Shown piece by piece: positions 214 through 56,232 of a DNA stretch of 58,604 nucleotides. Numbering within the stretch: the first letter of the stretch is position 1; each line of letters opens with the position of its first letter. Source of the DNA: Deltaproteobacteria bacterium (GTDB lineage: Bacteria; Myxococcota_A; JAADFL01); the NCBI GenBank assembly GCA_013152945.1, contig JAADFL010000121.1:1-58604 (forward strand), read 5' to 3'. Below the pieces are notes generated by a model that had not been told where the DNA came from, ran no database searches, and saw nothing but the letters and a program-made list of their open reading frames with translations. The translations under genes were made by a program, and so were the position numbers.

Positions 214-2091
214 ATGAAAAAGAAAATTTTTCCAAGTCCTGTAATTTTCGGAACCCTGGTATTGTACCTGTCCATCGGCATTGGCTGCGGTTCGGGTTTC
301 GAGAACGTCAACAATCCATCGGGCAGCACCAAGCTGACAGGCAGAGCCCTCAAAACCGACCGAACCCCGGCAGAGGGCGTATGGGCCTACCTGGTCAAGG
401 ATGGCCAGGCCGTGGCATGGGCCAAGAGCGATGAAAAAGGCAGATTCAAAATCGGGGCTGATATGGCAGGAACGGTGGACATCGTGCTCAACGATTCTGC
501 GGGCAGGGGAGCGCTCAAGACAATGCCGCTATACAATGGTGACAATGATGCCGGTGACATGTTCCTCCAGCCCCTGGAGAGCATCGCCCCTGTCGTGGAC
601 ATGCGGGGAGTGGGATACGAGGAGCGTGTTACAAAGGAAAGAGGCGACTATATCAAGCCGGTGTACAACTCGGATCGCTCAGCAGCCTTTGCAGGACGTA
701 AATTGGGTGGTGAATCAAACTGGCAAATCGTCCGGATAGACTTGCCGTCCGGAACAGAGACCGTGCTGCGGGAAGATGAGAAGATGTACACAAATACAAG
801 CAAGTACCTCCAATTGCTCTCTGACGATGTTTTGTACTACCAGGCTTACAGGACCATCAAGAATGACGACTACCCTGAAGGAATCTTGACGGAACACTCG
901 GTATTCATCGACACTCACACCGGCAAGGAACTTCTTGCCGTGGTTTGGTGGAGGTTCAGGGCAGGTCCGTTCATGTCAGGTGATCGCATTTGTTACCTGG
1001 ACGGACCAGAGCGCCAGTTTGCCTATGACACGATTTTCGGCACTGCATACGAGTATAGGTTACAACCGACATGCCTCGATGTAAGCACAGGCAAGGAAAG
1101 CCGGGGACCGATGATCCAGGGCTGGTGCACAAGCGCCCAGGTCCTTGCCTCGAACAGCAAGAGCACGGCCTTCTTGAAAGTAAGAGACTGCGATGAAGAG
1201 GACCCCGATTGCAATTTCGACAAGCCCTCTCCCATGTACCTGGTCAATTGGTCCGATCTTTCCAACAGGTATATAAGTTCTTTCAATTACTACAGCAGTT
1301 GGGCCGTTGAAACCGCCTGGGACGGTAAAAACCTGTACTACCTCAATAATGACCAGACCGCGGCCCATAATTATGAATTGAGACTCCTCAAGGTGGATAT
1401 TGCCTCCGGTCAAACGGTTCAGGTGGGATCACATATCTTTGATTGCAAGGGAAGCCAGGGAACTACCTGCCCGTACAATATGAAGGTATCTCCCGACCGC
1501 TCCGAACTACTGGTCCCGATGATAGAACGCACCCAGAATGAGTCACACAGTAACGGACTGTACAAGATCGATCTGGCGACCGGCAAGATTGCGGCCATGG
1601 ATACAACATTCACCATTGACGGCAAGGAATACTCCCTGTGCAAAACCGGGAATTACCCGGTTTGCAACCAAAGCTTCGAAACCGACGGATCGGTTTCCAT
1701 CGAAGAGGTCTTTACATCGGATGATGGGGATGGGGGCGCAAGAACCGGAATACGGGCCGTCATAGATACGGACGGCTCGTCCATGGCCCGTGCCTTTCCA
1801 CTGGGAGAAGCCGACTACCATGTCCCGGAAATAATAACCGGACCCCGTAATAAGTTGGAAATGGTTCGCGTGCGTGACCTTGAAACCGGTTTCTTCCAGC
1901 TCCATGCAGGAGACAAGGGTTCGGACCTGGCCTCGATGAACCAGGTTACGTTCATTACGGCGAGCCATTCTTATCCCACGTTTGCGCCGGATGGTGAGCA
2001 CCTGTACTACTTTACACGTGACCCCATATCTGGATACGAGCAGCTCTTTACGGTTTCCCTGAAAGAGCCTGAACGCGACGGGAGTAAATGA
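214..2091 (+). CDS. Beta-propeller (TolB/WD40-like) lipoprotein
   Basis: A predicted envelope lipoprotein of 625 residues. A Lys-rich N-terminus and hydrophobic segment end at Cys25 (IGIGC), a slightly atypical lipobox. Residues about 40-115 resemble a carboxypeptidase-regulatory-like beta-sandwich, with a TGRAL start and a GRFKIGAD core. The remainder is repeated beta-propeller-like blades, for example SPDRSELLVPM and APDGEHLYYFTRD, as in TolB-type folds. A strong GGAGG sits before the ATG. Its stop codon overlaps the start of the sigma-factor gene (ATGA), so it is the first gene of the sigma/anti-sigma/caspase operon and may be its ligand-binding or sensor component. No enzyme motif was seen. 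The fold class is fairly clear; the function is unknown. Confidence 0.85.
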   Translation: MKKKIFPSPVIFGTLVLYLSIGIGCGSGFENVNNPSGSTKLTGRALKTDRTPAEGVWAYLVKDGQAVAWAKSDEKGRFKIGADMAGTVDIVLNDSAGRGALKTMPLYNGDNDAGDMFLQPLESIAPVVDMRGVGYEERVTKERGDYIKPVYNSDRSAAFAGRKLGGESNWQIVRIDLPSGTETVLREDEKMYTNTSKYLQLLSDDVLYYQAYRTIKNDDYPEGILTEHSVFIDTHTGKELLAVVWWRFRAGPFMSGDRICYLDGPERQFAYDTIFGTAYEYRLQPTCLDVSTGKESRGPMIQGWCTSAQVLASNSKSTAFLKVRDCDEEDPDCNFDKPSPMYLVNWSDLSNRYISSFNYYSSWAVETAWDGKNLYYLNNDQTAAHNYELRLLKVDIASGQTVQVGSHIFDCKGSQGTTCPYNMKVSPDRSELLVPMIERTQNESHSNGLYKIDLATGKIAAMDTTFTIDGKEYSLCKTGNYPVCNQSFETDGSVSIEEVFTSDDGDGGARTGIRAVIDTDGSSMARAFPLGEADYHVPEIITGPRNKLEMVRVRDLETGFFQLHAGDKGSDLASMNQVTFITASHSYPTFAPDGEHLYYFTRDPISGYEQLFTVSLKEPERDGSK

Positions 2092-2651
2092 GAGAACTGG
2101 TGGAAGCTGCAAGAGGGGGCGATCGAAGGGCGCAACGAGCGCTCTTCGATCGTTTCCTTAACCCCTTGATGGCTTACTGTATGCTTTCCGCCAACCATGA
2201 CAGGGAGATGGCCATGGACTTGACACAAGAAACCTTCAGCAGGGCATTTCTGAACCTCGGCAAGTTGAAAGAACCTGACCGGTTCAAGGGATGGCTGTTT
2301 TCCATTGCCGCAAACGTCTGCCGCACCCGTGGAGTCCAGGCTAGCCGGCAAAGAAAATTACATGAGAGCTTGGTACTATTGGCGCAGGTTGGCCCGATGG
2401 AAGACGACAAACATATACGTGAGATAAGGGCTGCAACTGTACGAAAAGTGCTGGAATCCGTCCAAGACGAAAAACTAAAGAAAATCGCAATGCTCAAGTA
2501 TACCGAACCCGAGCACACGACAAGGGAAATTGCAAACAAGCTCGGCATACCACACGGTACGGTGACAGTTTCACTGTCCCGGTTCAGGGCCAGGGTAAAG
2601 GCAAGACTGGCCCGGGCGATTTCAGAGGTGGAGGAGGTCCGACATGTCTGA
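2088..2651 (+). CDS. ECF-type RNA polymerase sigma factor (module 1)
   Basis: A 187-residue sigma-70-family protein with only regions 2 and 4, as in ECF sigma factors. Region 2 is at about residues 15-85 and includes DLTQETFSRAFLNLGKL and FKGWLFSIAANVCR. Region 4 is a helix-turn-helix at about 140-180 (TTREIANKLGIPHGTVTVSL). It starts at an ATG overlapping the previous stop (ATGA), and its 3' end overlaps the anti-sigma gene by 8 bp, so translation is probably coupled. It should direct polymerase to a small regulon when released by the neighbouring membrane anti-sigma factor. No promoter consensus can be assigned from this sequence alone. Confidence 0.93.
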   Translation: MRELVEAARGGDRRAQRALFDRFLNPLMAYCMLSANHDREMAMDLTQETFSRAFLNLGKLKEPDRFKGWLFSIAANVCRTRGVQASRQRKLHESLVLLAQVGPMEDDKHIREIRAATVRKVLESVQDEKLKKIAMLKYTEPEHTTREIANKLGIPHGTVTVSLSRFRARVKARLARAISEVEEVRHV

Positions 2652-3480
2652 AACAATCGAAATATGTCCCATAGGGACCAGGGAGCGCCTCTTCAAGTTG
2701 TTGAGACATGAATTGCCCGAGGAGGAACAAAGAAGGCTGTCATCCCATCTCGAGGAACCTTGCGAAACCTGTCTGTCTTTGTTGGAGGAGATTGACGAAG
2801 ATGAACTTCTCGATCAGGGTGCTGGTCCAAGGGCGGCGTTGACGGGTAAAGAAGCGGATTCGATGTTCAATCGCGTGACAGGCCGGGACCATGAAAACAA
2901 TATCAGGGAAATGCATCTGTCCAAGACATTTACTCTGCGCATTCTCAAAACGGCATTGCCGCTGGCTGCCGCCGCTGTCTTGTTGCTTGCCTTCGGCCTT
3001 ATCCATGATTGGAACGGCAAAAAAGGATCGAGACATGAATCGTACATCGGGCTCAAGGGCGGCAAAGGCCCGGAATTCCTTGCTGCTCCCGTATTAAAGG
3101 GATTCGTGGGCAAGCTCGAGGACGGCCGGCCAAAACTGGTTCGGCGGCTCCTGCCCGGGGATATCTTGACAAAGGGCGAGTTGGTGCTCCTCAAATATCG
3201 GATTTCAGCGCCATCTTTCATATATCTCATTTTTGAAGCCAAGGGTGAGAGCAGGATAATATTTTCCACCAGCACAAAGGTCCCGGCCGGAGAACATGAA
3301 TTGGCTGCCAACGGCCGGACACTTGCCGTTGATCCGTCACAGCTCGGCGACACGTTTAGACTGACATTGGTTGCATCAAGCGTGCGAGTGCAAGACATCG
3401 GAATGAAACACGGCACAAGCGGAATTTGTCCGGGTTGTGCGGCGGCAAGTATACTGATCCACTCGGAGGCGGACAGGTGA
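2644..3480 (+). CDS. Membrane anti-sigma factor with periplasmic DUF4384-like domain (module 1)
   Basis: A 278-residue predicted single-pass inner-membrane protein. The cytoplasmic part holds a zinc-binding-type motif His35-x4-Cys40-x2-Cys43, close to the HxxxCxxC of zinc-finger anti-sigma domains but with one extra residue. A transmembrane helix covers about 99-120 (LPLAAAAVLLLAFGLI). The periplasmic part from about 150 has a LLPGDILTKGELVLLKY core resembling DUF4384-type beta domains. Position directly after the ECF gene, with an 8 bp overlap, supports the anti-sigma role. Its stop overlaps the GTG start of the caspase gene (GTGA). What releases the sigma factor is unknown; the downstream caspase is an obvious candidate, by inference only. 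Confidence 0.82.
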   Translation: MSETIEICPIGTRERLFKLLRHELPEEEQRRLSSHLEEPCETCLSLLEEIDEDELLDQGAGPRAALTGKEADSMFNRVTGRDHENNIREMHLSKTFTLRILKTALPLAAAAVLLLAFGLIHDWNGKKGSRHESYIGLKGGKGPEFLAAPVLKGFVGKLEDGRPKLVRRLLPGDILTKGELVLLKYRISAPSFIYLIFEAKGESRIIFSTSTKVPAGEHELAANGRTLAVDPSQLGDTFRLTLVASSVRVQDIGMKHGTSGICPGCAAASILIHSEADR

Positions 3481-5153
3481 GTAATCGAAAAAGATATTTG
3501 TTGTTTCTTGCTATATGCAGCCCTGCACTCTTTATTGGAGGCTGCCTCGCACATTCAGGGATCAAGGGGCCGGCCCTGGTGGATTTTGCTCCTGCGGGGT
3601 TCATGGATAAAACAAGCAAGCCGAAACGAATGGCATTGGTGGTAGGTATAGATTCGTTCGAAGACAAGCATTTCAATAGTCTCAAATACGCGGTTGAAGA
3701 TGCAGAGGCTCTGGGTGCCAAGCTCAAAAAAAGTTTTGATTTGGTGCGTGTACTGGATACGCCCGGACAAACCCGCCGGGCATCCATACTCGAGGCGATT
3801 GCCGATATCGGCGAACAGGCGAATGATGCACGTGACACCGTGCTGTTCTACTTTTCTACACATGGGTCACTCGGCCGCAAGCCCGGCGGTTCACTGGAAC
3901 GTTTCCTGGTGGCCGCAGACACGCGAATGAACCTGCTGGCGCAAACAGGCATACCCGTAGACGGTCTCCTGCGTGTGGTGGACAATATACCGGCCAAGCG
4001 AAAGCTGGTGGTCCTTGCAAGCTGTCACAGCGGGCAAGGAAAATCCCGGGTTGACGATGACCTGGCCAAGGCCCTGGCCTCGCTCAAATCCGGTTCAACC
4101 CTTCCGCCGCTGGAAGACGTGAGCGAGGCAACCATAATCCTGACGGCATCGGCATTCGGCGAGACAGCGCGGGAGAGCGAAAAACTGGGGCATGACATAT
4201 ATACATATTTTTTCCTGCAAGCACTCGATCCGGCAATAGGAGATCGTGACGGTAACGGCGCGGTGACCGCGTCCGAGGCACATGACTATGCAAGAAAGAA
4301 AACCTACGAGTACACACACGGCATGCAAAGACCTACCGCGGAAAGCTCCATACTGGGACGCGATCCCATTGTGCTCACGGGTGACCCGGACAGGCCGGGC
4401 AGACCGGTCTTGTTTTCTTATGCGCCTTCTGCAGAAGGTCTCGAGGTCGATGTCGATGGAACCGCCAAGGGACTTCTGCCGGGAGGAATAGTCGTTCCCG
4501 AGGGAAAACACGAACTGGCATTGGTAGAAGCAAGGGGCGGTAAAACCCTGTTCAAAGGAGAAATATCTTTAAAACAGGGTGATACAGTGGAACTTACCAG
4601 GTTGCTGCCGCCTCCAGCAGACATTGCGCTCATGGCAGGCGGGTCGTTCGAATGGCCCCTGCTTGCTACCACGCGGGGAGAATACTTGCCGTACACTTTC
4701 GGCGCAAACCTCGGCGTACGAATGCATAACTGGCCCAATCGTGGATTCGTTCTGATGCTGAATGGGAACTATCATGGCGGTAAGGGAAGATCCTCGGGCC
4801 TTGGTGAAACCCTGCCCTTTGAATTCGATGCAGTAGGATTCGACATAGGCCTCGGCTATTCGTGGAGTATGCCCCATGATTTGTACATCTCGCCCGGCCT
4901 GTCGGTTGGAACAGAGTGGAATTTCAGAAAATTCGACACAGGCAGGTTCAGTAAACAGGAATCCATGTGGGGATTCAAATTCGGCGCGGAACTGGCTATT
5001 GAATGGGAACCTGTAAGCGGCCTGCTGTTTGTTCCAAAATTACTGGGAGGGGGAATGGTTGCCGGCCTGGGAAACGACATGGGTCCACATCCATTTATAG
5101 GCCTTGCTTTTTCTGTGGGCGGAAAGTTTCCCATGGGCCATGGATTGCAATAG
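3477..5153 (+). CDS. Lipid-anchored caspase-fold protein with C-terminal beta-barrel (module 1)
   Basis: A 558-residue protein. The GTG at 3477, overlapping the anti-sigma stop, is preferred because it places a signal peptide with lipobox LFIGGC (Cys23) at the N-terminus; upstream in-frame codons would bury it. Residues about 50-300 form a C14 caspase/metacaspase domain: RMALVVGIDSF strand, candidate catalytic His129 in FYFSTHGS and Cys183 in LASCHSGQ. An EF-hand-like loop, DRDGNGAVTASE, covers 256-267. A PEGA-like beta domain (about 310-375) follows, and the last 175 residues alternate aromatic and glycine-rich strands like a small outer-membrane barrel. The motif before Cys is ASC rather than the usual DAC. 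A protease domain facing the periplasm or cell surface is likely; substrate unknown. Confidence 0.85.
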   Translation: MSNRKRYLLFLAICSPALFIGGCLAHSGIKGPALVDFAPAGFMDKTSKPKRMALVVGIDSFEDKHFNSLKYAVEDAEALGAKLKKSFDLVRVLDTPGQTRRASILEAIADIGEQANDARDTVLFYFSTHGSLGRKPGGSLERFLVAADTRMNLLAQTGIPVDGLLRVVDNIPAKRKLVVLASCHSGQGKSRVDDDLAKALASLKSGSTLPPLEDVSEATIILTASAFGETARESEKLGHDIYTYFFLQALDPAIGDRDGNGAVTASEAHDYARKKTYEYTHGMQRPTAESSILGRDPIVLTGDPDRPGRPVLFSYAPSAEGLEVDVDGTAKGLLPGGIVVPEGKHELALVEARGGKTLFKGEISLKQGDTVELTRLLPPPADIALMAGGSFEWPLLATTRGEYLPYTFGANLGVRMHNWPNRGFVLMLNGNYHGGKGRSSGLGETLPFEFDAVGFDIGLGYSWSMPHDLYISPGLSVGTEWNFRKFDTGRFSKQESMWGFKFGAELAIEWEPVSGLLFVPKLLGGGMVAGLGNDMGPHPFIGLAFSVGGKFPMGHGLQ

Positions 5154-5344: not shown

Positions 5345-8300
5345 CTATTGGTTCAGCTCCATGTAGAAATAGTCCCACCCTCCGAGCCTGCCGTCGAGCC
5401 AGTACAGGATTCCGTCTCCTACAAGAGGCTTGCCTTGGTAGAACTGGTTCCTTGTCACCCTGTCCAGTTTGGGCGCTGAGCCGTCTTTGGGTATGGTTAC
5501 AAGCATTACCTCCCTGTTACCACTAATTGATGTTTCAAAAGCCAGGTAAGGAAACTTGAACGATGGGCCGGCTATCCATTCTTCGCTTTTGAAGATCTCT
5601 GTCTTGACCGTACTCGAAAGATCCTCGAGTATCAACGAATAGACATATTTTTCGTCCGGCAGGCCACGGTTTTCAACCTTGTGTTCGACCCAGCATGCGT
5701 AATTATCACTCAGGGCCACGGTTCTTTCATCCGGTCCGAACGAGTCGGCATCCCACTTGTTGTATTTGTCCAACAACAGGGGAGGTGGACCCTTGTCAAA
5801 GTCGTACAGGTAGAAAGAGATAGGTTGTTTTTCATTCGAACCTTCATCCCGTAAGCCGAAGAGCAGTCGATCTCCATCCAAATCGAGCCCTTCTCCTTCT
5901 ATCTGGATGGTTCCGTTCTGATTGTCCTGTATGGTTTGAGGAGGTGATGCGAGATCAACATCCCGGCAATAGAGCCCCCATGGAGGCATGCCCCCGCCTG
6001 CCTGCAAGTGAAAGTCCTGCCAGCATATACGTTGGTGGTCCAGTGCGCAGTCAGGAACAACGGTGTCGGGATCATTTACTTTGACTGTAGTGCCGGTTTG
6101 TCGATCCAATAGGAACAGGTCCACTCTGGAACCTTGAACCTGCTGGTACGCCATGTGCGTATCCGTAAGTCCGCAAACCCTGACATTGGACTGCACTTTT
6201 ATGCTTTGAATTATTGAACGAGTCTTGTAGTTGTAACCCGTTATTCCCTGGAAGCCGGGCCTGGAATCCGCAAACGCGATTTCCCGGCCATTGACAGCGC
6301 CCCATGCCTGACTCCCTTCCAGGGGCAACAGCCAGGCGCGCTGGGCCACTTCATTTAACTCGAGGCTCTTTGTTTTTCCGTGTGAGCGTCTATACGCCAC
6401 GAACCTGCCGGAAACAGCCGGCTCTTTCTCTCCATCGATGTCCGAGGTAATGTCCCTGTTGCTCCCTGAAGAAAAGTCATGGAGAATAATGCTCGGGTTT
6501 CCGTTTGAATAATCCTCGTACACCAGGAGGCCGTCGCGTAATCTCGGGCTGTTCTGCTCCATTGTAGTACCTTCGTCATAGTTCACGGGTCCCAGGCTTT
6601 GATCAGAATCGAGGTCGTACGCCATGATCATAGGAAATACGGTATCTCCGCCTGACCAGGCAACATAACGGCCGTCGGTACTTACATGGAAGTTGTCCAT
6701 CATCAATCCTGCAGGATCGGCTATGACTTTTTTGGCCGCAGTGCCGGTATTGTATGAATATAGTGTATCATCTATGGCATATGCAAGGATGCCGTTCCAG
6801 ATGTCCAGTGACCGGCAGGAACTTTCGGAATCTCCATTATCAACCAGTTCTACATCAGCCGCACCCTTGTGCCAGATATATATATTCGCGCCGTCGTTTT
6901 GTAGGCAAAATGCAGCCACTTGGCCATCCCATGCAAATGACCTGATATCACCGCCTGTGGAGGGAGCAGGAAGCACGGTAACACCTGTTTGAAAATCAAA
7001 TAGGTAGAGCCAATCGCGTATCCACATCAGGGAGTTGGCGGCAAGCCTTATTCCCCAAATGATTCCATTTCCGGCAAATCCCATTTGATCCACTTTTTGA
7101 ACCTGGTCGGTAAAAAGGTCCTGAATGTATATATCGCTTGACCATTCTTTCTGGGTGCTATCAAAAATGTTTTGAGTATAAGCAAAGTACCTTCCCCAAA
7201 CATCGAAGTTATCATCCACGTTGTCATTTCGTTCGTTCATGACTTCAGTAGAAGACTCGTCTATCTTGGAAACCGACGTGCTGCTTACATTGCCTGCTTC
7301 GTCGACAGCCCTGAACAGGAATATGTTTTCCTTGTCCTGATCAAGTTGTACAGGAAAACTGTTATCCTGTCCCGGTGTTATTTCATGGAAAGTCCCCTCT
7401 TGTCCCACTGCGAGTTCATAGTGAAGCCGGTTGGTGTCTGTGCTTGGTTTTGCCAAGAGCAGGTACGCGGTATCGGCATTCACGGTGCCTTCGGGAGGCA
7501 ATAACGTGGGCGTGGTTGGCGGCGTAGAATCTTCGACAACCGTGATTTCGGCTGCATTGGAAAGATTGCCGGCCAGGTCCTTTGCCCTAAGTCGTATCCT
7601 GTGTTCATTGTCCGGAAGGAGTTGAACCGGGATTTTGAGCGATCCATTTCCCACGCCACTGTTTTGCCAGGGACCGTCGTTTATCTTGATTTCATAGGTG
7701 TCGAAATTCTCATCAATGGAAGGCGAGGCCAGCAGCAGGTCCAGGGAATCCGCGTTTACAACCATCCTGGTATTCATGAAAACCGGGTCGGTAGGAGGAG
7801 TGGAGTCTTCCACCACTACCACACTTTCCTCCGCCCCTGCGTTGCCTGCAGGATCCAGTGCGCGCACACGTATCAGATTTCCCCTGTCCTGCTCCAATTT
7901 GACCGTGAATGGAAAATCCTGCCGGGTGAGTTGGATCCAATTCGCCCCCTGTGTCCTCAACTGGTACACAAGGGCCTGGCCGCTGTTGTCCGTGGAAGGG
8001 GCCAAGAGGGATACATCTATCTGGTCTGCATTGATGATCTGTGCAGGTACGTGTAGCACGGGTGGAGTAGGCGCCTCGGTGTCCAGAATAACCGTGTTGT
8101 CGGATTCGGTGTCGGTGTGATTGCCGGCTCGATCATAGAAACGCACATAAACCTTTTGAGGCGTATCTACTGAAGCCAGGAGGTGAATGACCGTGGGTGA
8201 AAAGGATTGTAAAGGCTCGTTGAAGTCATCATCTGCACTGACGACCATGTAGGTTCCGGACGGATCGTCCACTGAAAGTTCAACCGTGACAGACTCCGAG

Positions 8301-10168
8301 TTCGTGTAATTTCCTGAAGCGATGTGCACCAAGGTATCCTGTGGGGGTATACGGTCCAGGACCACCTGGGCCGCTGATACCTTGCTCCTGTTTCCCGCCT
8401 GGTCTGCAAGTTGAACGAAAATCCTGTGCGGCCCATCGCGGTCATCCAGCAGGAAAGGTTTATTCGAACGAAACGTCTCCCACTGGCTGTTTCTGAAGGT
8501 TGGCGTTTCCGATATTCTGAAATAATCGGCTCCGTCGGCATCTATACTCAGGTTTACCAATCTCTTGTTTACGAAATCACCCTCATCTACTGTAACAAGA
8601 CTCAACTGGGGAGGCTCGGTGTCAACGGTAACGGAAGCGGAATATTCAGGGCTTTCATTTCCGGCCGCATCCTTGAACATAACATACATGGTATGTTCCC
8701 CATCCCCGGAGAAAACCCATGAAACCAGGTTTGTCATGGGCACGTACTCGGTGGCCGGACATCCCTGTACCTCGCAAAGCTTGAATGCAAGAGGCGTGTC
8801 ATCGGTTGCATCAAGCTTCACAACTGTCGTTCTGGAACCAAGTATTCCCGTACCATCTCCAATTTGGATCGGCATGTCACCCGGAACCGGCGGCTTGGTA
8901 TCGACAGTAATTTCCTTTGTGACTGTTTGTGAAATATTTCCGGCCCTGTCTGAAAAACGAATCGCCACGCTGTGCGTGCCGTCCTGCTTGAAGGCCAGGG
9001 CCTGCTGCAGGGTAAAATCCTGCCAGGGCTGGTCCTTCAGTTCCTCATCGATCGCGAGTTGCATGGAGTTTACGCCGGATGTCTCGTCGTATGCGTTTGC
9101 AAAGAGCCCCACGTTCAGATCATTTGAATACGAACTGCCTGATCCGAGCTGGACATCCACTACATGGGGCGGCTTCGTATCCAGAATTATCGATGACTCG
9201 ATACGATCGGATTCGCGGTAATCAGTGGTACCGCAACCTGTTTCACTCACGCGGAATTTGGAATATACGCTCTTTATTCCATCCTTGTCTTTGTCCCCGG
9301 CTATCTTAAAAGATTTCTTGGGCGAATACTCCTCGTACTCCGCGCCTGAAAAATCAGGTGACACGGATAACATCATTTCGCTTGTGTTGAAGGCCAGGAT
9401 GGTCAGGTCGACTGTTCTCTTGTTTGTGTACTTGGCATTGTTCTCGATTTCGACCAAGCCCGTTACAGGAGGAAGTTGTATGGTCTCGGCGATGTCCGTG
9501 CCTCCTCGCTCCACCTTGATTCCACAAAGCGAGCGTTTGGCGAATCCATCCCTATCCGCACTCAAGTCATAGTCTCCCACCGGGACATCGTTAATCGCGA
9601 ATGTACCGTCCGGGGCCGCAATTCCTGCATATGCAGAACCCAGGGCAGGCAGGCCCCCGCCTTGGCCCCCGCTTGGAACAACCTGTATTACTGTTCCTCC
9701 CGGACTTTGATGTTCCCGGTCGCCTAAAGACAAGAGACTTACCGTTCCGCGTATGGTTGCTCTTATCACCTTGAGGTCCACCTGCCCGATGTTGCGAACA
9801 GAACCTGGTGAGATCTCCACTATTCTTTGCGTATCCTCGTAACCCTCTGCCTTGAATGCCAGTTCGTACACTCCGGCAGGCAAGCCGTCGATTTCGAACT
9901 TGCCGTCCGGCTTTGGATTACGCTGCAGCCCCAATTTCGGAACACTAACCGTAGCTTGGCCGGGATTCCCTGCTGCCTCCATGACGAGACTGCCTGTTAT
10001 TGTCCCCTTGGCCTGTTGGTCCAGCGGGCTTGATGGATCGTACGGATTATTTGCGCTTATCGTCTTTCCGCAAGACAATAACAAGGGTATTGTAGAAAAC
10101 GCCAATAAGATACCAAAGTTCAGTTTGAAACCATTTCTTGTTTCCGGCTGTCTCTCACCAGTATCCAT
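5345..10168 (-). CDS. Giant Ig-like repeat and beta-propeller lipoprotein
   Basis: A predicted 1607-residue surface or periplasmic lipoprotein. Of three near-adjacent ATG codons, the one at 10168 has the best spacing from GGAGG. The signal peptide ends in a lipobox LLLSC (about Cys33). Two carboxypeptidase-regulatory-like domains come first (GKFEIDGLPAGVYELAFKAEG and GTFAINDVPVGDYDLSADRDG). About nine bacterial Ig-like modules follow, marked by repeated VDTKPP/VDTEPP/EDSTPP and DRAGN/DEAGN signatures. The C-terminal 600 residues look like a TolB-type propeller (DLFTDQVQKV, VSGRFVAYRR). It converges on the first caspase operon, so it is separately transcribed. The architecture suggests adhesion, glycan binding or surface display; no catalytic motif was seen. 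Confidence 0.88.
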   Translation of the reverse strand: MDTGERQPETRNGFKLNFGILLAFSTIPLLLSCGKTISANNPYDPSSPLDQQAKGTITGSLVMEAAGNPGQATVSVPKLGLQRNPKPDGKFEIDGLPAGVYELAFKAEGYEDTQRIVEISPGSVRNIGQVDLKVIRATIRGTVSLLSLGDREHQSPGGTVIQVVPSGGQGGGLPALGSAYAGIAAPDGTFAINDVPVGDYDLSADRDGFAKRSLCGIKVERGGTDIAETIQLPPVTGLVEIENNAKYTNKRTVDLTILAFNTSEMMLSVSPDFSGAEYEEYSPKKSFKIAGDKDKDGIKSVYSKFRVSETGCGTTDYRESDRIESSIILDTKPPHVVDVQLGSGSSYSNDLNVGLFANAYDETSGVNSMQLAIDEELKDQPWQDFTLQQALAFKQDGTHSVAIRFSDRAGNISQTVTKEITVDTKPPVPGDMPIQIGDGTGILGSRTTVVKLDATDDTPLAFKLCEVQGCPATEYVPMTNLVSWVFSGDGEHTMYVMFKDAAGNESPEYSASVTVDTEPPQLSLVTVDEGDFVNKRLVNLSIDADGADYFRISETPTFRNSQWETFRSNKPFLLDDRDGPHRIFVQLADQAGNRSKVSAAQVVLDRIPPQDTLVHIASGNYTNSESVTVELSVDDPSGTYMVVSADDDFNEPLQSFSPTVIHLLASVDTPQKVYVRFYDRAGNHTDTESDNTVILDTEAPTPPVLHVPAQIINADQIDVSLLAPSTDNSGQALVYQLRTQGANWIQLTRQDFPFTVKLEQDRGNLIRVRALDPAGNAGAEESVVVVEDSTPPTDPVFMNTRMVVNADSLDLLLASPSIDENFDTYEIKINDGPWQNSGVGNGSLKIPVQLLPDNEHRIRLRAKDLAGNLSNAAEITVVEDSTPPTTPTLLPPEGTVNADTAYLLLAKPSTDTNRLHYELAVGQEGTFHEITPGQDNSFPVQLDQDKENIFLFRAVDEAGNVSSTSVSKIDESSTEVMNERNDNVDDNFDVWGRYFAYTQNIFDSTQKEWSSDIYIQDLFTDQVQKVDQMGFAGNGIIWGIRLAANSLMWIRDWLYLFDFQTGVTVLPAPSTGGDIRSFAWDGQVAAFCLQNDGANIYIWHKGAADVELVDNGDSESSCRSLDIWNGILAYAIDDTLYSYNTGTAAKKVIADPAGLMMDNFHVSTDGRYVAWSGGDTVFPMIMAYDLDSDQSLGPVNYDEGTTMEQNSPRLRDGLLVYEDYSNGNPSIILHDFSSGSNRDITSDIDGEKEPAVSGRFVAYRRSHGKTKSLELNEVAQRAWLLPLEGSQAWGAVNGREIAFADSRPGFQGITGYNYKTRSIIQSIKVQSNVRVCGLTDTHMAYQQVQGSRVDLFLLDRQTGTTVKVNDPDTVVPDCALDHQRICWQDFHLQAGGGMPPWGLYCRDVDLASPPQTIQDNQNGTIQIEGEGLDLDGDRLLFGLRDEGSNEKQPISFYLYDFDKGPPPLLLDKYNKWDADSFGPDERTVALSDNYACWVEHKVENRGLPDEKYVYSLILEDLSSTVKTEIFKSEEWIAGPSFKFPYLAFETSISGNREVMLVTIPKDGSAPKLDRVTRNQFYQGKPLVGDGILYWLDGRLGGWDYFYMELNQ

Positions 10169-10317
10169 CATTTCCTCCATTGCTTTTCCATTCGGTGTTT
10201 TTTACATCGAATGACAATTTTCCATATTAATACTTTTTCAACCTCAAGTCGATATTGACATCAGCGAAAATCGATAAATAGGAAGCCTCATGGTTCAAAA
10301 AGACTAAATAGAGCGAT

Positions 10318-48403: not shown

Positions 48404-50218
48404 TTAAAGATCATTTTCCTTGAGAAACCTGTACAGGGTTGCTCTCCCTACCCCGAGGAGTTTGGCTGCCTTTACCTTGTTCCCATTCGTTTCTTCAAGG
48501 GCTTGTCTTATTGAAGGCAAGTCGAGCCTCTTTCTCTTGCCGGTTTGGGCGCGATCTTTCCTGTCATCGAGGTCCATGGGAATGTGCCAGCTATTGGCTC
48601 CTCCCATGATTTCAGGAGGTAAATGGCCGAGTTGTATCTTTCCGTCTTTACAATAAATGGAAGCGAATTGCATGGCGTTTACAAGCTCCCGAACATTCCC
48701 GGGCCAATGATACTCCATGAACCGGTCCATAACCTCGGTGGAAACAGATTCAATGTTGACATGGCTCTCTTTTCTGATGGATCCGGCTATCCGCTCCACA
48801 ATCAATGGAATATCCTCTTTTCTCTCGCGCAAAGGGGGCAGGTGTATTGGAACTACGCAAAGGCGGTAGTACAAATCTTCTCTGAAGATTTTTTCGTGGA
48901 CGAGTTTCTTCAAATCCTTGTTGGTGGCGCTCACAATACGCACGTCCACGGAAATTGATTTCTCGCCTCCAACCTTTTCAAAGCTCTGTTCCTGTAGCAC
49001 ACGCAGCAGGTGAACCTGCAACGACGGGTACAATTCACCGATTTCGTCCAGGAACAATGTGCCGTTGTCTGCCAGTTCGAAACGTCCCTTCTTTTCACGT
49101 ATTGCGCCGGTAAATGCCCCGCGGACATGTCCGAACAGTTCGCTTTCGAGAATATTTTCAGGCAATGCACCGCAATTGATCGGAACAAAAGGATTATCCT
49201 TTCGGGTGCTCTCCAGGTGGATGGCCCTGGCAGCGAGTTCTTTGCCGGTTCCGCTTTCCCCGCTGATGAGCACAGGGTACCTCGATTTCGCGACTTCCCG
49301 GATACTAAAGAAGATCTCCTGCATGACCCTGGATTGACCTACCATTTCGTGGAAAACCGGCTGCCTGGAATGCTCCATGCGGAGATTGTTTACCTCGGTG
49401 ATGTCTTTGATTGAAAGAATCACTGCAGGTCTGTTGCCTGGATTCAGTTCGATAGCAGCAGTGGACATGCGTAGTTTTTTCTTTACCCCTGAAGGAGTTT
49501 GAACAGTGGTTTCGTACCTTCTATGGCCTGGTGGCGTGGCAGGGCCGTACTCGAATGGGCATTCTCCCTTGCACAAGCCATTGGGTGCGAATATTCCATG
49601 ACAATCCTTCCCAAGTATCTCGGTTTTCTTTACCCCGGTTATCCTCTCTGCAGCCTTGTTGAATAAGAAAACCCGGCGATGAGGATCATGCACGATTATG
49701 CCTTCTTCCAAGATATCCAGGAGATTTTCGAGGTGATTCCTCTTGTCCATGAAAGCCTGGATGTATCCATGATTGAACAGGGCTTCGATCTTTATTTGCA
49801 ATTCGTTTGAAATCGCTCGTAGTACCGGCAACGCTTTCTCCCGGTCTCCTGAAACAGGTTCGTATTCTTGTAAAGGCCAGTACAGGTAAAAGGGGTCTCT
49901 TTGAAAAATCGATGGAGATCCATCCAGCCCCATCTTTTGTGAATCCTGGCAAAATTCGTGACTCGACCGGGTTAGCGTTATAATAAGATCGAACTCGTGA
50001 TTTTTCAGGTTGCTCAAGGATTTTGGATGCAGGTCCTGGGCATCGATGTTTCTCTCCCTTAATACCTGTATTGATAGAGGATCCAGGATACCGGCTTGAA
50101 GGCCGGCGCTTGTCACTTCAACAAGGTTATTGCCCATGTGGCGTACCAATGCCTCTGCCAGTTGACTCTTACAGGAATTGAAATTCCCTAGAAAGAGCAT
50201 CTTGAATTTCTCAACCAT
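48404..50218 (-). CDS. Sigma-54-dependent activator with degenerate LMW-phosphatase/ArsC-like sensor and PAS domain
   Basis: A 604-residue protein starting at the ATG with AAAAAGG upstream. Residues 1-145 align with low-molecular-weight tyrosine phosphatase/ArsC folds, but the P-loop reads LFLGNFNSCKSQLAEAL: the nucleophile Cys is Gly11 and the invariant Arg is Lys17, while Cys16 and Ser18 are kept, so catalysis is unlikely. A Cys-containing PAS domain follows (about 165-285, DCHGIFAPNGLCKGECPF). The AAA+ core has GESGTGKELAAR, GAFTGA (the sigma-54 contact) and DEIGEL, and a Fis-type HTH (NKVKAAKLLGVGRATLYRFL) ends it. It probably binds upstream of the divergent sigma-54 promoter at 50414 and senses redox, metal or an oxyanion through the front domains (inference). 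Confidence 0.93.
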   Translation of the reverse strand: MVEKFKMLFLGNFNSCKSQLAEALVRHMGNNLVEVTSAGLQAGILDPLSIQVLRERNIDAQDLHPKSLSNLKNHEFDLIITLTRSSHEFCQDSQKMGLDGSPSIFQRDPFYLYWPLQEYEPVSGDREKALPVLRAISNELQIKIEALFNHGYIQAFMDKRNHLENLLDILEEGIIVHDPHRRVFLFNKAAERITGVKKTEILGKDCHGIFAPNGLCKGECPFEYGPATPPGHRRYETTVQTPSGVKKKLRMSTAAIELNPGNRPAVILSIKDITEVNNLRMEHSRQPVFHEMVGQSRVMQEIFFSIREVAKSRYPVLISGESGTGKELAARAIHLESTRKDNPFVPINCGALPENILESELFGHVRGAFTGAIREKKGRFELADNGTLFLDEIGELYPSLQVHLLRVLQEQSFEKVGGEKSISVDVRIVSATNKDLKKLVHEKIFREDLYYRLCVVPIHLPPLRERKEDIPLIVERIAGSIRKESHVNIESVSTEVMDRFMEYHWPGNVRELVNAMQFASIYCKDGKIQLGHLPPEIMGGANSWHIPMDLDDRKDRAQTGKRKRLDLPSIRQALEETNGNKVKAAKLLGVGRATLYRFLKENDL

Positions 50219-50307
50219 GAACACACACCTTTTTCAAATTAATAAATAGCACACCCTATCCAAATTGGGCAATCAATGATAATAGAGACGACAAGACAGT
50301 GCGCCAG

Positions 50308-51609: not shown

Positions 51610-52365
51610 TCAGTTCTTGCCTGGTTCCAGTGACTCGCACACTACCCTGTATTGTTCGGTTTCAGGCCCTTGATCCAATATCACGCTCCTGTCCACCAGG
51701 TCGAAATCAGTAAACAGACACACCTCTGCTTTTTCCTCACCATCCAATGTAAACGCACCTTGAAGCGGCACGAGGTTACCGCATGTCAGGGGATTTGAAG
51801 GGTGGAGAGGAAAGTAGATTTCATCTCCCTGAAAGATCGCAAGGTCCCAGTACAGGCCCTCATTGAAAGGACATGTTACCCTCAACATGAACCGGTCGCC
51901 CGGCTCAAAATCTTTCGGGGCGTTTACCACCGTGCCCTGTCTCTCTCTTATTAGGGCCATGGCAAGGTCTCCTCCTTTGACATGTATCAAGGATCCTGGA
52001 AAATATGATGAAGCACCATCATGGTTGTGGGCGGACCTATGGCCTGTCCCTGGAATTATCACTAACAGCAAGAGTGCTGCAATTGCCAGCATTGGCGTTG
52101 CCGCCAGGGCCGTTCGCTTGATTGCACGGCGATCAAAAGAGAAAATCGTAATCTTGCCGCCCATGGCCGGGGCGGTTTCCAAAGGCTTTAGCCGGCGTTC
52201 GTCGCTCCTGATGTAATCGAGTTTAGAAAAACACTCCTGACAAGAAGACAGGTGCCGCTCTACTGACTCGGCATCGGCTGAATCGAGTTCGTTCAGGTTG
52301 TACATCTCGAGCTTCAACCATGAAACCGGTTTAGTGCATGCACCTTTCATGTTGTCATGCTCCAT
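51610..52365 (-). CDS. Membrane anti-sigma factor (module 2)
   Basis: A 251-residue single-pass protein. The cytoplasmic zinc-finger motif His38-x3-Cys42-x2-Cys45 matches the usual HxxxCxxC of anti-sigma domains. A transmembrane helix lies at about 85-105 (AATPMLAIAALLLLVII). The periplasmic domain (FEPGDRFMLRVTCPFNEG, FPLHPSNPLTCGN, LQGAFTLDGEEKAEV) has the same GD...FP...LD plan as the module 1 anti-sigma, with extra Cys residues. Its gene overlaps the end of the ECF sigma gene by 19 bp. It ends the second caspase operon. Confidence 0.85.
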   Translation of the reverse strand: MEHDNMKGACTKPVSWLKLEMYNLNELDSADAESVERHLSSCQECFSKLDYIRSDERRLKPLETAPAMGGKITIFSFDRRAIKRTALAATPMLAIAALLLLVIIPGTGHRSAHNHDGASSYFPGSLIHVKGGDLAMALIRERQGTVVNAPKDFEPGDRFMLRVTCPFNEGLYWDLAIFQGDEIYFPLHPSNPLTCGNLVPLQGAFTLDGEEKAEVCLFTDFDLVDRSVILDQGPETEQYRVVCESLEPGKN

Positions 52366-52823
52366 TGCCCTTGATCCAGGTTGTTGAGCCTGGATCGTAT
52401 TTTTTTCAGGTGCTTAAAGACTGTTTTTCTCGTGGTGCCCAGCAGCCAGGCTATCTCTTCCTGGTCCATGTCGTCGAGGAAACGGTAAACAAATATCTCC
52501 CGGGATTTCTTATCGAGCCCTCCAATGAGCTTGACCAGAATATCCATGTCCAGGGGCCTGCCGGGTTCGTTTGATGTAATCGAAATGTCATCGACGGGAC
52601 GGCTTCTTTCCAGCAACTCCCTCCTCTTTTTACGATTGCGAAGTAGATTGAGGCACCTGTTTGTACACGCTCGGTACAAGTACGGCAGTTCCACGCCCGG
52701 GGTTTCCTTTTCTATTAGTTCAAGGAAAAGTCCCTGCACCACGTCCTCCGCGTCCTGTTTGTTTCTCAATATTCGTTCACATTTCCGAAGCAGGGCCGGG
52801 CCGTATTTCTCATAAGCCTCCAT
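52347..52823 (-). CDS. ECF-type RNA polymerase sigma factor (module 2)
   Basis: A 158-residue ECF sigma factor. Region 2: RILRNKQDAEDVVQGLFLELIEK and LPYLYRACTNRCLNLLRNRK. Region 4: LDKKSREIFVYRFLDDMDQEEIAWLLGTTRKTVFKHLKKI. It differs clearly in sequence from the sigma factor at 2088, so the two modules probably control different promoters. The ATG at 52823 lies three bases after the stop of the Cys-rich lipoprotein gene. It is probably held inactive by the overlapping anti-sigma gene product. Confidence 0.93.
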   Translation of the reverse strand: MEAYEKYGPALLRKCERILRNKQDAEDVVQGLFLELIEKETPGVELPYLYRACTNRCLNLLRNRKKRRELLERSRPVDDISITSNEPGRPLDMDILVKLIGGLDKKSREIFVYRFLDDMDQEEIAWLLGTTRKTVFKHLKKIRSRLNNLDQGQWSMTT

Positions 52824-52826
52824 GCC

Positions 52827-54023
52827 CTACTTGCATACACCATTCCTCTTTCCCAGGTCCAGGCATGCCGGATCGCCACAGGCATCAGGGCCAAGACACA
52901 CTTTCGGGCAATCCGAGGAGGCGCTGCATCTTTGGCCTATGAATGCACAGAGCGTCAAACCTTGTTCAGCCAGGCATTCATTGCTGATGCAATCATCGTT
53001 GAAAAGGCATGGGTCGCCTGTTTTACCTGCGCCCAGTCCCGGCGCACACTGAAAGGGCGGATCTATGAATGCATAGGCATCGTCCATGCCCGCAAGAGAC
53101 CTTTTTGTACATGCCTGTCCCAAGGGGCAGTCCTGGTCCGAGCAGCATGACGAACACGTTCCCTTGCAGCATATACCTGTACTACATTCCTCGGATGTGA
53201 CGCATCTTTCACCCATGGCCTTTTGAGAGGACAAGTCACAGCGGGTTGTTTCATGTTGGTTTTCATAGACAAAAGAGCAGGCTTGGCCCTGGCCGCAGTC
53301 ATTGCTATCTTTACATGGGGTGCACCTGGCCCCGTATTTCAGGTAGCTATCGGATTCCGAATCCAAGTTCGTGCAAAAACCGTTCGAGCACTGGCTGTTC
53401 TTTTCGCAAGGAGTGCCGTCAGGCCTGTTGTCGAGATCAAGAGGTGTTCCCATGCAATCCATGCCGTCTTGTACCCTTATTCTTGCGAGAACAGCCTTCC
53501 CGGGTCCTGTCTTCCGTACTATGAACCTCACCGAAGAGTACCAGGTAGGAGCCTTGATTTTGTAGTCGACAGGAGTCCAGTCACCGGATGGTATCGGATG
53601 GGAATACTCCAATGTTCCATCGTCCTGGAAATCCATTTCGAGGAAAAGCTCGGCCTGGTCGTCTTTCTTGACCAACAGGTCGAATTCGAAACACTTGGGA
53701 AGACCGAGTGTGTCATCCAGGTTGGCAAGCTGGCTTAGTTTTACGTCGTTACCGACAAGTGCTACGCCATAATCCTTTTCATGCCACGTAGGAACCCGCT
53801 CTATCTTGCCTTCTACGTCCCATGAACAAAGCGAATCCCCGCACCAGAGGTCGAAATCGGGGTTCTGTATCAGGTCGTGACCACAGCCGTTACCCCGGAG
53901 GAACAATATGGCTACAATGGACAATATTGTTTTGCCAAGCCAGTCAGGAAGACCGTATTTCTTTTTATTCCCCGATTCATTCGCGCCTGCATCCTTTCTT
54001 GATAAGAGATTGTAATTATTCAT
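52827..54023 (-). CDS. Cys-rich surface lipoprotein (module 2)
   Basis: A 398-residue protein. An unusually long, charged N-region precedes a signal helix ending in FLRGNGC (Cys47). A domain resembling a carbohydrate-binding/galactose-binding beta-sandwich (about 50-180, NPDFDLWCGDSLCSWDVEGK, ADWTPVDYKIKAPTWY-like strands) is followed by four Cys-rich modules (CVTSEECSTGICCKGTC, CSDQDCPLGQACTKR). Its ATG overlaps the caspase stop (ATGA). It takes the place of the propeller lipoprotein in module 1 and is a candidate ligand-binding partner. Confidence 0.86.
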   Translation of the reverse strand: MNNYNLLSRKDAGANESGNKKKYGLPDWLGKTILSIVAILFLRGNGCGHDLIQNPDFDLWCGDSLCSWDVEGKIERVPTWHEKDYGVALVGNDVKLSQLANLDDTLGLPKCFEFDLLVKKDDQAELFLEMDFQDDGTLEYSHPIPSGDWTPVDYKIKAPTWYSSVRFIVRKTGPGKAVLARIRVQDGMDCMGTPLDLDNRPDGTPCEKNSQCSNGFCTNLDSESDSYLKYGARCTPCKDSNDCGQGQACSFVYENQHETTRCDLSSQKAMGERCVTSEECSTGICCKGTCSSCCSDQDCPLGQACTKRSLAGMDDAYAFIDPPFQCAPGLGAGKTGDPCLFNDDCISNECLAEQGLTLCAFIGQRCSASSDCPKVCLGPDACGDPACLDLGKRNGVCK

Positions 54024-55747
54024 ATTGCACCTCTCACTCCAATGGAAAAAGTGAATCCTCCGTCGTCATGCGTGTCACCCACCAGGTTCTTCAGGGCCGG
54101 AGCAAATACGTAACCGCCTTGAACGAACATTCCAAAATGCTGCCAGAACATGGTGCTCAACCCTGCGGACACAGAGATGTTGTAACCATAGTGATATTGA
54201 ATATCGTTTTCTCCATTCTCGACCGACATGTGGGATTTGACAATCGTCATTCCCCCGCCTGCCTGTATGTACGGTGTCAACCAGTAGTCCAGCAAGGGCA
54301 GGGATGCCCTGGCTTCCAGGCTTATCCTGTGGGCCGTCCAATCGAATCTGGATTCTTCGTTGTTCCCGGACTGGCTGTTGATCATTCTCTTATAGTCGCC
54401 TTGGTCGAGCGTACTGTAGGTCAGGTCAAGGGCAAGATTCCGCGACAGGTGGTAAAGCAGGGATGCCTGGAGGTAGATATTGTTTCCACTGAAAAGCTGG
54501 GCCTCGTAGCCAAAGGTCTCCAGCCGGTCCGTATACTTGTCCGTGCGACCCAGTGTTCCACCGAATGCAAGCTCCATGGAAAACACCGGATCCGGCCTTC
54601 CCAAAGCAGCAGCCTTGATGGTGGTTTTGGCTTCTTCCACCGGCTCGCAGTGATTTGTTTCAAGTGTTTTGGTTTGGTTTGCGTCAAGTTTGAAAGAGCA
54701 CTTTTTTGCATGATTGTCTTGTTTCAAGATGGCGCTGTACTTTCCAGGAACCAGGGCTATTCGCACAAGCCCGCCTTCGGCCTTAAATACCTCTGCAACT
54801 ACCATGCCCGACGGCCTTGAATACACCAGCAAGTCTCCTTTCATAGCAGCAGGCAGCTCCAGCCTGGAACTGGCCCTTGAAGGGTACGAGAGCACCATGT
54901 CGCCCTTGCCGCGAAGATCTGTCTGAAGAGTCACGTGTTGACTTCCGACAGCAGTCGATGCAGTAGAGATCAATGTCCTGTTGTATGCATAACTATAGGC
55001 CTCCGACAGGGTCACACGGCCGTCACCATTACTATCCGCAGCGCCTCTGAGTCCACTAACCAAGTGGTTGGTAAAGAAAGAACCGCCTATGTCATCCGAT
55101 TCCTGGGACAGCTCGTTCGCGGTGCTGGATGCCATTACCACAGTGCCCTTGGTGTTGAGTCCTGATACGAAATTATAAGAGAACGACTTTGCCGGTTTTG
55201 CTCCCTTAATATTCGAAATGGCACCTGACTGGCAGGCATCCAGTATTACCAACTTGACTGTCGCAGGCATGGATATTAGTTTTTGCTTCAATGTTGCAAG
55301 GCTTATCCGATCTCCTCCAAGATCCAGGTCAGAGGCCCTCGCATGGCCGGAGTAGTAGAAGAGAAAAATGCTTTTTTCATCCTGTAATGACAGGGCCTGA
55401 AGTTTTTTAGAGATCTTTTTGATCTGGTCCATTACCTCGACCGCAGATGGATTCGACAGGTGCTTCACGTTTTCGGGCCGGTACCCTCCCAACTCCTCCA
55501 GCACCTGGGCCAAACGTCCGGCGTCTGCATCTGGATACTTGAGTTCTTCCTGGCCCTTACCCGGCACGGCACTACTGACTAGCAGGGCAAAGGATTGCAG
55601 GGATTGATCCGGCATTGTTGATGCTGTTTCTCCTGCAACCGATATATCGGCCTGGAGAAACGATATGAGGCAAATAAGTATCAAGCTATCCCGGGGTTTG
55701 AAGACTCTATAGGGATAATGCATACATTCTGTTGCACTTGACATCAT
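54020..55747 (-). CDS. Secreted caspase-fold protein with C-terminal beta-barrel (module 2)
   Basis: A 575-residue protein; the ATG at 55747, eight bases after GGGAGG, gives a signal peptide (SLILICLISFLQADISVAG). The caspase domain (about 50-280) carries candidate catalytic His135 in FYYSGHA and Cys172 in DACQSGA, close to canonical motifs. An EF-hand-like loop, DSNGDGRVTLSE, is at 238-249, and GSQHVTLQTDLRGKGDMVLS matches a common end of myxobacterial caspase-fold proteins. A short beta domain and about 180 residues of barrel-like strands follow (LFSGNNIYLQASLLYHL, ISVSAGLSTMFWQHFGMF). It is the first gene of module 2. Confidence 0.88.
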   Translation of the reverse strand: MMSSATECMHYPYRVFKPRDSLILICLISFLQADISVAGETASTMPDQSLQSFALLVSSAVPGKGQEELKYPDADAGRLAQVLEELGGYRPENVKHLSNPSAVEVMDQIKKISKKLQALSLQDEKSIFLFYYSGHARASDLDLGGDRISLATLKQKLISMPATVKLVILDACQSGAISNIKGAKPAKSFSYNFVSGLNTKGTVVMASSTANELSQESDDIGGSFFTNHLVSGLRGAADSNGDGRVTLSEAYSYAYNRTLISTASTAVGSQHVTLQTDLRGKGDMVLSYPSRASSRLELPAAMKGDLLVYSRPSGMVVAEVFKAEGGLVRIALVPGKYSAILKQDNHAKKCSFKLDANQTKTLETNHCEPVEEAKTTIKAAALGRPDPVFSMELAFGGTLGRTDKYTDRLETFGYEAQLFSGNNIYLQASLLYHLSRNLALDLTYSTLDQGDYKRMINSQSGNNEESRFDWTAHRISLEARASLPLLDYWLTPYIQAGGGMTIVKSHMSVENGENDIQYHYGYNISVSAGLSTMFWQHFGMFVQGGYVFAPALKNLVGDTHDDGGFTFSIGVRGAI

Positions 55748-56232
55748 GGCGAATACCTCCCTTGTCTGCCTGTCTAACAAGTTAACACCCAAAGAGCAGA
55801 TCATGGGAACCAGGACCGCATTTTTTATTTCCCGGGCGACCGGACAGGGCCGGACCCGAAAAGGGGATGGGTGAAGAGTCTCAATTGATATTATTGGTGT
55901 TTTATGGTTGGAGTTGGGTTCGCCGCGTCATGAAAATGAAATTATCCAAATATTGAAATAACAGGGACCGTCTCCGGGTGGAAGGATAACAGCAAGTTCC
56001 AGGTATATATTTTCCATTGGTTTCAAGGCCTGTCATTTTTCCCCATTCTCCCCAATATCCTATGACTCCGTTATGTGGTGTTGTGTGCAGGGTATAGGCT
56101 TGAAGTTGACAGTCAGCACCAGAGGTTGGATTATGCCCGCATTCATGGCCGTCCGCCCCTGGGGGCGCGGACTGGGACGCGCAAAGCCATCTGTTCTATA
56201 TTGATGTGCGATGATTGATAAAAGGAGGAATT
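55748..56232. other. 485-base divergent intergenic region
   Basis: It lies between the module 2 caspase gene and the endonuclease/phosphatase-family gene and must hold both promoters. No gene was recognised. A hairpin-like sequence GTCCGCCCC-TG-GGGGCGCGGAC sits at 56151-56172, about 60 bases before the next start. Confidence 0.5.

Follow-up and report, generated by a model that had tools for sequence, protein, structure and literature searches.

An operon for an ECF sigma factor, a membrane anti-sigma and an exported caspase-barrel protein, and the trans-envelope switch that it may encode in Myxococcota

Results

An overlapping operon encodes an ECF sigma factor, a single-span anti-sigma and a caspase-barrel protein

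We analysed a four-gene operon at positions 214-5153 (+) of contig JAADFL010000121.1, from a Deltaproteobacteria bacterium of the Myxococcota_A lineage; the window is the whole stretch of 58,604 nt. In order, the genes code for a lipoprotein, an extracytoplasmic function (ECF) sigma factor, a membrane anti-sigma and a lipoprotein in which a caspase domain is followed by a predicted outer-membrane barrel, as indicated by the sequence and its open reading frames (ORFs; Table 1). The last three genes are referred to below as the triad. The first and second genes have the ATGA at 2088-2091 in common, the second and third overlap by 8 bp (2644-2651), and the third and fourth have GTGA in common (3477-3480), the caspase gene starting at the GTG at 3477. 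An earlier reading of this DNA (the sequence-only reading) had described these four genes and their three overlaps, and both were confirmed at these coordinates.

Region 2 of the sigma factor was clearly recognised in Pfam searches and region 4 weakly (E = 0.003). The zf-HC2 match of the anti-sigma was also weak (E = 0.02), and zf-HC2 was found in 11 of the 28 anti-sigmas aligned as a family. The pair has the make-up of an ECF sigma factor with regions 2 and 4 only, encoded next to a small zf-HC2/ASD-I protein. In the structural model, the anti-sigma has a helical N-terminal region, a single transmembrane helix (residues 105-123), a disordered linker (residues 124-140, with a predicted local distance difference test score (pLDDT) below 50) and a beta domain (residues 150-274). 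The single hydrophobic helix lies C-terminal to the His/Cys motif, as in a single-span anti-sigma, and the N-terminus is probably cytoplasmic. Comparison of this model with the PDB returned weak matches only, to immunoglobulin-like folds such as RhoGDI.

The product of the caspase gene matched Peptidase_C14 (E = 8.1e-13), and its barrel was weak by sequence (OMP_b-brl, E = 0.047). A model built on 26 relatives (mean pLDDT 85, predicted template modelling score (pTM) 0.75) displayed a disordered N-terminal tether (residues 1-43), a caspase domain (residues ~50-300), a small beta domain (310-372) and eight long antiparallel strands (382-552), the arrangement of an OmpA/OmpX-type barrel. The modelled caspase part resembled MALT1 (3v4o, TM 0.76 by target), GSU0716 of Geobacter and a metacaspase of Candida, and the C-terminal part resembled OmpA (9fzd, TMt 0.75; 1bxw, 0.74), OmpX (1qj9, 0.69) and also Ail. 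The predicted catalytic dyad, His129 and Cys183, is invariant among the 26 relatives, most of which end in Phe or Trp, like the beta-signals of outer-membrane proteins. Going by the topology of outer-membrane proteins, an even strand count together with a periplasmic C-terminus should place the caspase domain on the periplasmic side. Two further proposals of the sequence-only reading were borne out: the ECF sigma factor with its single-span anti-sigma, by the Sigma70_r2 match, the one transmembrane helix and the His/Cys motif, and the caspase as an exported protein with a lipid anchor and a fused outer-membrane barrel, by the lipobox, the Peptidase_C14 match and the model matches to MALT1 and OmpA/OmpX.

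A canonical EF-hand-type loop within the caspase domain suggests calcium control. By pattern count, 27 of 34 close triad caspases have this loop, as do 9 of 21 wider triads and some caspases without a sigma gene; the last two results led us to reject it as a hallmark of the triad.

Table 1 Positions of the operon, its domains and motifs, and the second caspase cluster in the window
Feature	Position	Strand	Basis
Lipoprotein, accessory operon member	214..2091	+	Lipobox ..GIGC; CarboxypepD_reg-like N-terminus; weak propeller-like body
ECF sigma factor, 187 aa	2088..2651	+	Sigma70_r2 2.3e-8
Single-span anti-sigma, 278 aa	2644..3480	+	N-terminal zf-HC2-like His/Cys motif, transmembrane helix, DUF4384-like periplasmic domain
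Zinc-finger-like motif His35...Cys40..Cys43 of anti-sigma	2746..2772	+	Conserved columns in 28-member alignment (H 0.82, C 0.75)
Anti-sigma transmembrane helix, residues 105-123	2956..3012	+	Hydrophobicity, model
Juxtamembrane Lys138-Gly139 / Lys141-Gly142, candidate site-1 scissile bond	3055..3069	+	End of disordered linker
Beta-rich DUF4384-like periplasmic domain, residues 150-274	3091..3465	+	Model; DUF4384 matches in family
Lipoprotein caspase-barrel, 558 aa, GTG start	3477..5153	+	Pfam, conservation, structure model
Lipobox Cys23 (IGGC), predicted lipidation site	3543..3545	+	Sequence; lipobox in most close relatives
Lys30-Gly31 between lipid anchor and caspase domain, disordered stretch	3564..3569	+	Sequence, model
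Caspase (Peptidase_C14) domain, residues 50-302	3624..4382	+	Pfam, model; His129 at 3861-3863, Cys183 at 4023-4025
EF-hand-type loop DRDGNGAVTASE, residues 256-267, within caspase domain	4242..4277	+	Invariant D256 and E267 (26 sequences)
Small PEGA-like beta domain, residues 310-372	4404..4592	+	Model; PEGA match 4.4e-4 in relative L065
Eight-stranded OmpA/OmpX-like outer-membrane barrel (predicted), residues 382-552	4620..5132	+	Model, PDB matches
Second cluster, anti-sigma	51610..52365	-	zf-HC2, transmembrane helix, Lys-Gly linker IHVKGGD
Second cluster, ECF sigma factor	52347..52823	-	Sigma70_r4_2 7.6e-11
Second cluster, 398-aa protein without family	52827..54023	-	No family match
Second cluster, caspase, 594 aa	54020..55804	-	Peptidase_C14 2.2e-14

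The triad recurs across Myxococcota

The source genome encodes five caspases, all of which adjoin an ECF sigma gene; two lie in the window, and each of contigs C199, C170 and C9 contains one. The C9 cluster (L038:6682-8376) carries a Cys-rich lipoprotein (307 aa) between the sigma gene and a single-span anti-sigma-like gene. Scanning the caspase alignment against one genome per species (84,980 species) returned 24 loci of the window caspase class, nearly all from Myxococcota, four of which are contigs already seen among the relatives. A same-strand ECF sigma gene ended 0.85-1.35 kb upstream of the caspase in 21 of the 22 close loci with enough upstream DNA, and no upstream ECF sigma gene was found at any of 56 more distant, mostly cyanobacterial, caspase loci. 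The same arrangement was displayed by 20 of 54 other Myxococcota caspases taken by Pfam family only, at a distance of 0.72-1.06 kb, the length of one intervening gene. The gene between sigma and caspase codes for a single-span protein. Because it recurs across Myxococcota loci with this one-gene spacing, the triad is a real and frequent module of the phylum. The sole close relative off the usual order is L073, an Oligoflexus metagenome-assembled genome with the ECF sigma gene downstream of the caspase. An apparent anti-sigma/caspase fusion (G008, a 786-aa ORF with a transmembrane helix and a caspase domain) was a reading-frame artefact and resolved into two separate genes on inspection.

The first gene behaved differently. 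Among the loci fetched for the relatives, L057 alone has homologues next to its triad: two copies in tandem, immediately upstream of the sigma gene. L056, whose caspase is the closest to that of the window (51% identity), is outside this count since its contig begins just upstream. Found beside the triad in L057 alone, gene 1 is accessory and outside the conserved core of the module. Conservation of the four-gene order, which the sequence-only reading had put up for a search of other genomes, therefore holds for sigma, anti-sigma and caspase, which recur in Myxococcota, and fails for gene 1. Similarly, the description of gene 1 as a propeller lipoprotein stands for the lipoprotein, whose relatives have a CarboxypepD_reg-like N-terminus; the propeller is weak, being based on a single sub-threshold PD40 match (E = 0.099), and no solved relative was found among PDB sequences.

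The isolation of gene 1, which is beside the triad in just one other genome, is what a chance neighbourhood of functionally unconnected genes would produce. We see next to no prospect for that explanation, which is made very unlikely by the many loci and paralogous copies of one genome in which the triad is found at a narrow spacing.

Anti-sigma linkers and caspase tethers carry the same Lys-Gly motif

In the alignment of 28 anti-sigmas, Met1 apart, no two adjacent columns were better conserved than a Lys/Arg-Gly pair just outside the membrane (K/R 0.89, G 0.89), which exceeded the zinc-finger His (0.82) and Cys (0.75). Within 35 residues of the transmembrane helix, 25 of the 28 linkers had the motif, compared with a mean of 11.5 and a maximum of 19 in 5000 shuffles. 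Triads collected later, by caspase family alone, gave 18 anti-sigmas in which the helix was recognised; 17 had the motif within this distance, now preset, and the 18th just past it. One locus of this set, L224, repeats the earlier L070. As a control, zf-HC2 membrane anti-sigmas chosen by family alone had the motif in 3 of 13 cases. A DUF4384 anti-sigma whose fetched 15 kb contained no caspase lacked it, and DUF4384 proteins other than anti-sigmas did not carry it ahead of the domain, with one doubtful exception (L142). In L154 and L158, the linker has Lys-Ala-Gly or Lys-Ser-Gly (RLKAGV, RLKSGV) instead of Lys-Gly; such natural variation could be informative about cleavage specificity.

On the caspase side, 15 of 16 lipidated triad caspases had Lys-Gly in the stretch from the lipidated Cys to the caspase domain (CLAHSGIKGPALVDF in the window protein), compared with 1 of 35 other lipoproteins of the same loci, used as a control. 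Eight of the 10 caspases without a recognised lipobox also lacked Lys-Gly, as expected if the motif serves to release an anchored enzyme. On the tree, the correlation between lipobox and Lys-Gly comprised five independent pairs (two of them on well supported branches), consistent in direction and too few for statistical power. Both motifs lie in, or at the edge of, linkers that are disordered in the models, and the occurrence of the same motif in both tethers suggests that one enzyme acts on both.

DUF4384 provides a second connection between anti-sigmas and caspases

Counting matches at E up to 1, DUF4384 was detected in 10 of the 28 aligned anti-sigmas, with a best value of 5.2e-12; the window anti-sigma itself had no DUF4384 match in Pfam. 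A sample of 77 Myxococcota genomes yielded 25 DUF4384 matches, mostly in three settings: the periplasmic domain of triad anti-sigmas, the product of an immediate neighbour of a caspase gene, or a segment of the caspase polypeptide. These three settings tie anti-sigmas to caspases independently of the triad. At L138 and L150, DUF4384 and an OmpA-like C-terminal domain were found in one protein, with no caspase neighbour in the fetched stretch.

The caspase may be the site-1 protease of a trans-envelope switch

The shared Lys-Gly linker motif and the DUF4384 connection lend support to an action of the caspase on the periplasmic region of the anti-sigma, a possibility raised by the sequence-only reading. 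We propose, with an even chance of being right, that the operon encodes a trans-envelope switch based on regulated proteolysis, in which an outer-membrane-tethered caspase is the site-1 protease that cuts the anti-sigma between Lys/Arg and Gly. The zinc-finger domain of the anti-sigma would keep the ECF sigma factor at the inner membrane, and the DUF4384-like domain of the anti-sigma would sit in the periplasm. The caspase-fold cysteine protease would be tethered twice to the outer membrane, by its N-terminal lipid and by the OmpA/OmpX-like barrel, and could be triggered via the barrel, via calcium at the EF-hand-type loop, or via failed barrel assembly. It would then make the site-1 cut at the Lys/Arg-Gly bond of the flexible juxtamembrane linker, an M50 site-2 protease would free the sigma factor, and the freed sigma factor would raise expression of its own operon. 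The Lys-Gly on the caspase side would allow the protease to free itself from its lipid anchor. We infer all four of the elements on which this scheme depends, namely cleavage between Lys and Gly, the caspase as the cutter, the signal and the autoregulation.

Several findings agree with this scheme. Lys/Arg-Gly in an exposed juxtamembrane linker fits the need of a site-1 cut, and M50 proteases, candidate site-2 enzymes, are present in the source genome. A passage in PMC6426788 states that orthocaspases cut after positively charged residues.

The active site of the window protein is less easily reconciled with a cut after Lys, and it is among the points that weigh against the proposed switch. 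Two residues before the catalytic Cys, the subclass to which this protein belongs has Ala (LA[ST]CHSG); Asp is found at this position in other triad caspases, and in metacaspases, clostripain and MALT1 it helps to form the basic S1 pocket. The window caspase thus lacks the Asp that accompanies the basic P1 specificity of metacaspases and orthocaspases, and we file it as a C14 caspase-fold protein rather than as a metacaspase or orthocaspase of proven specificity. Two S1 acids may be left in the subclass, Asp75 and Glu233, both invariant among the 26 relatives. They appear to correspond, Glu233 more tentatively, to the other two S1 acids of MALT1, and Asp75 aligns with the conserved DA motif of solved metacaspases. 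The motif itself raises further objections. L067 and L072 have Lys-Gly without a recognised lipobox, the lipidated L057 has Lys-Ser, the motif counts are not phylogenetically independent, and Lys-Gly could serve another protease.

Should the window subclass not tolerate Lys, the shared motif must be the site of a different protease, which would make the caspase an output. The caspase would in this case be a target of the sigma factor, acting as a cell-surface or death protease; a DegS-like or other site-1 protease would cut the anti-sigma, co-transcription would reflect autoregulation, and Lys-Gly would be the site of that protease both on the anti-sigma and for release of the caspase. ECF operons often carry their own output genes, one S1 acid is gone in the window subclass, and a link between myxobacterial metacaspases and programmed cell death was proposed in 2012, in passages of PMC3501461. 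However, DUF4384 joins caspases and anti-sigmas in other contexts too, and anti-sigmas unconnected with a caspase seldom have Lys-Gly, which is unexpected under a housekeeping protease. We consider a role as output rather unlikely.

An explanation that names the signal is a version of the proposed switch. Insertion of the barrel would keep the caspase off the anti-sigma; when assembly or lipoprotein sorting fails, the protease would be left near the inner membrane, cut the anti-sigma and start envelope repair. This logic resembles that of NlpE and RcsF, and it suits a protease joined to both a lipid anchor and an OmpA-like barrel, with relatives that end in Phe or Trp like substrates of the beta-barrel assembly machinery. 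Triad caspases with a signal peptide but without a lipobox exist, so that lipoprotein sorting is not always the signal, and we judge such a sensor of assembly or localisation to be improbable.

A cut of the anti-sigma is dispensed with altogether if DUF4384 and the Lys-Gly linker occupy the caspase active site, keeping both proteins inactive until signal-driven dissociation changes the sigma factor directly. Fusions of DUF4384 to caspases in cis exist, which could suit a domain that inhibits or regulates, but the motif lies in a linker rather than in the folded domain, and M50 proteases for the cleavage route are present. An inhibitor or scaffold of this kind seems to us very improbable.

Returning to the proposed switch, we tentatively put forward a broader version, which could hold but would not surprise us by failing: the barrel-caspase would be sensor and site-1 protease at once, freeing both itself, from its lipid anchor, and the ECF sigma factor by cutting one Lys-Gly motif shared by its tether and the anti-sigma, and would represent an undescribed signalling class, widespread and multiply paralogous in Myxococcota.

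Other features of the window

The second caspase/ECF cluster of the window (51610-55804, -) has the order caspase, 398-aa protein, sigma, anti-sigma, and the Lys-Gly linker is kept in its anti-sigma. Convergent with the operon, 5345-10180 (-) codes for a 1611-aa lipoprotein with carboxypeptidase-regulatory and many immunoglobulin-like domains; its linker past the lipidated Cys contains Lys-Gly (QQAKGT), the sole case among the 35 other lipoproteins. An unusual fusion is encoded at 48404-50224 (-), a sigma-54 activator with a low-molecular-weight phosphotyrosine phosphatase N-terminus followed by PAS, AAA and Fis-type helix-turn-helix domains.

Discussion

If the proposed switch is true, it would give a large group of Myxococcota caspases a specific substrate, the adjacent anti-sigma, with the scissile bond predicted to a single residue. 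It would also assign these caspases a non-death role; the role of bacterial caspases has long been debated, usually as cell death. ECF sigma factors would gain an outer-membrane sensor that is fused to a protein, and regulated intramembrane proteolysis a class of site-1 protease not known for it. Triads occur in culturable Corallococcus and Anaeromyxobacter and, by the operon passages of PMC3501461, in M. xanthus.

According to those passages (Asplund-Samuelsson et al. 2012, PMC3501461), four of the five metacaspase genes of M. xanthus are in operons with sigma-70 factors, and sigma-70/metacaspase operons are also found in Anaeromyxobacter, Haliangium, Sorangium, Ralstonia and Fibrobacter. The combination of sigma factor and metacaspase is what they have in common with the triads, which include Anaeromyxobacter and Corallococcus loci. 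The term anti-sigma is absent from the main text of that paper, and its passages on operons do not describe a barrel, DUF4384 or a cleavage motif. Unlike these passages, which proposed a link to cell death, our analysis adds the anti-sigma, the barrel, DUF4384 and a candidate cleavage motif. The association of sigma factors with metacaspases is therefore known; new are the membrane anti-sigma with a caspase-linked domain, the barrel on the protease and the candidate cleavage site common to both proteins. Within the open-licence literature, we found no report of a caspase cutting a membrane anti-sigma.

The operon resembles RseA/DegS/RseP and RsiW/RsiV in its ECF sigma factor, its single-span anti-sigma with a periplasmic domain, the juxtamembrane linker as the proposed place of the first cut and the M50 proteases in the genome, whereas the candidate site-1 enzyme is here an operon-encoded caspase-fold protease joined to an outer-membrane barrel. 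With FecA/FecR/FecI it shares an outer-membrane barrel, a single-span anti-sigma and an ECF sigma factor in one operon, and a trans-envelope logic; the barrel is here small and OmpA-like rather than a TonB-dependent transporter, and carries a protease domain. The CalpL system offers an analogy only, since CalpL is a Lon-type and not a caspase-type protease.

Control of a sigma inhibitor by a caspase-fold protease is known from Craspase (gRAMP/TPR-CHAT/Csx30; PMC10028731). Craspase is cytoplasmic and RNA-triggered, whereas the protease described here is exported, membrane-bound and a C14 caspase rather than TPR-CHAT; the operon has no TPR and no CRISPR effector, and C14 outscores CHAT in Pfam. 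Proteolysis has also been proposed to control ECF54 sigma factors, whose neighbours include CHAT and subtilase proteins (review PMC8999054). In contrast to ECF54, proposed to act without an anti-sigma, the sigma factor described here is encoded together with one.

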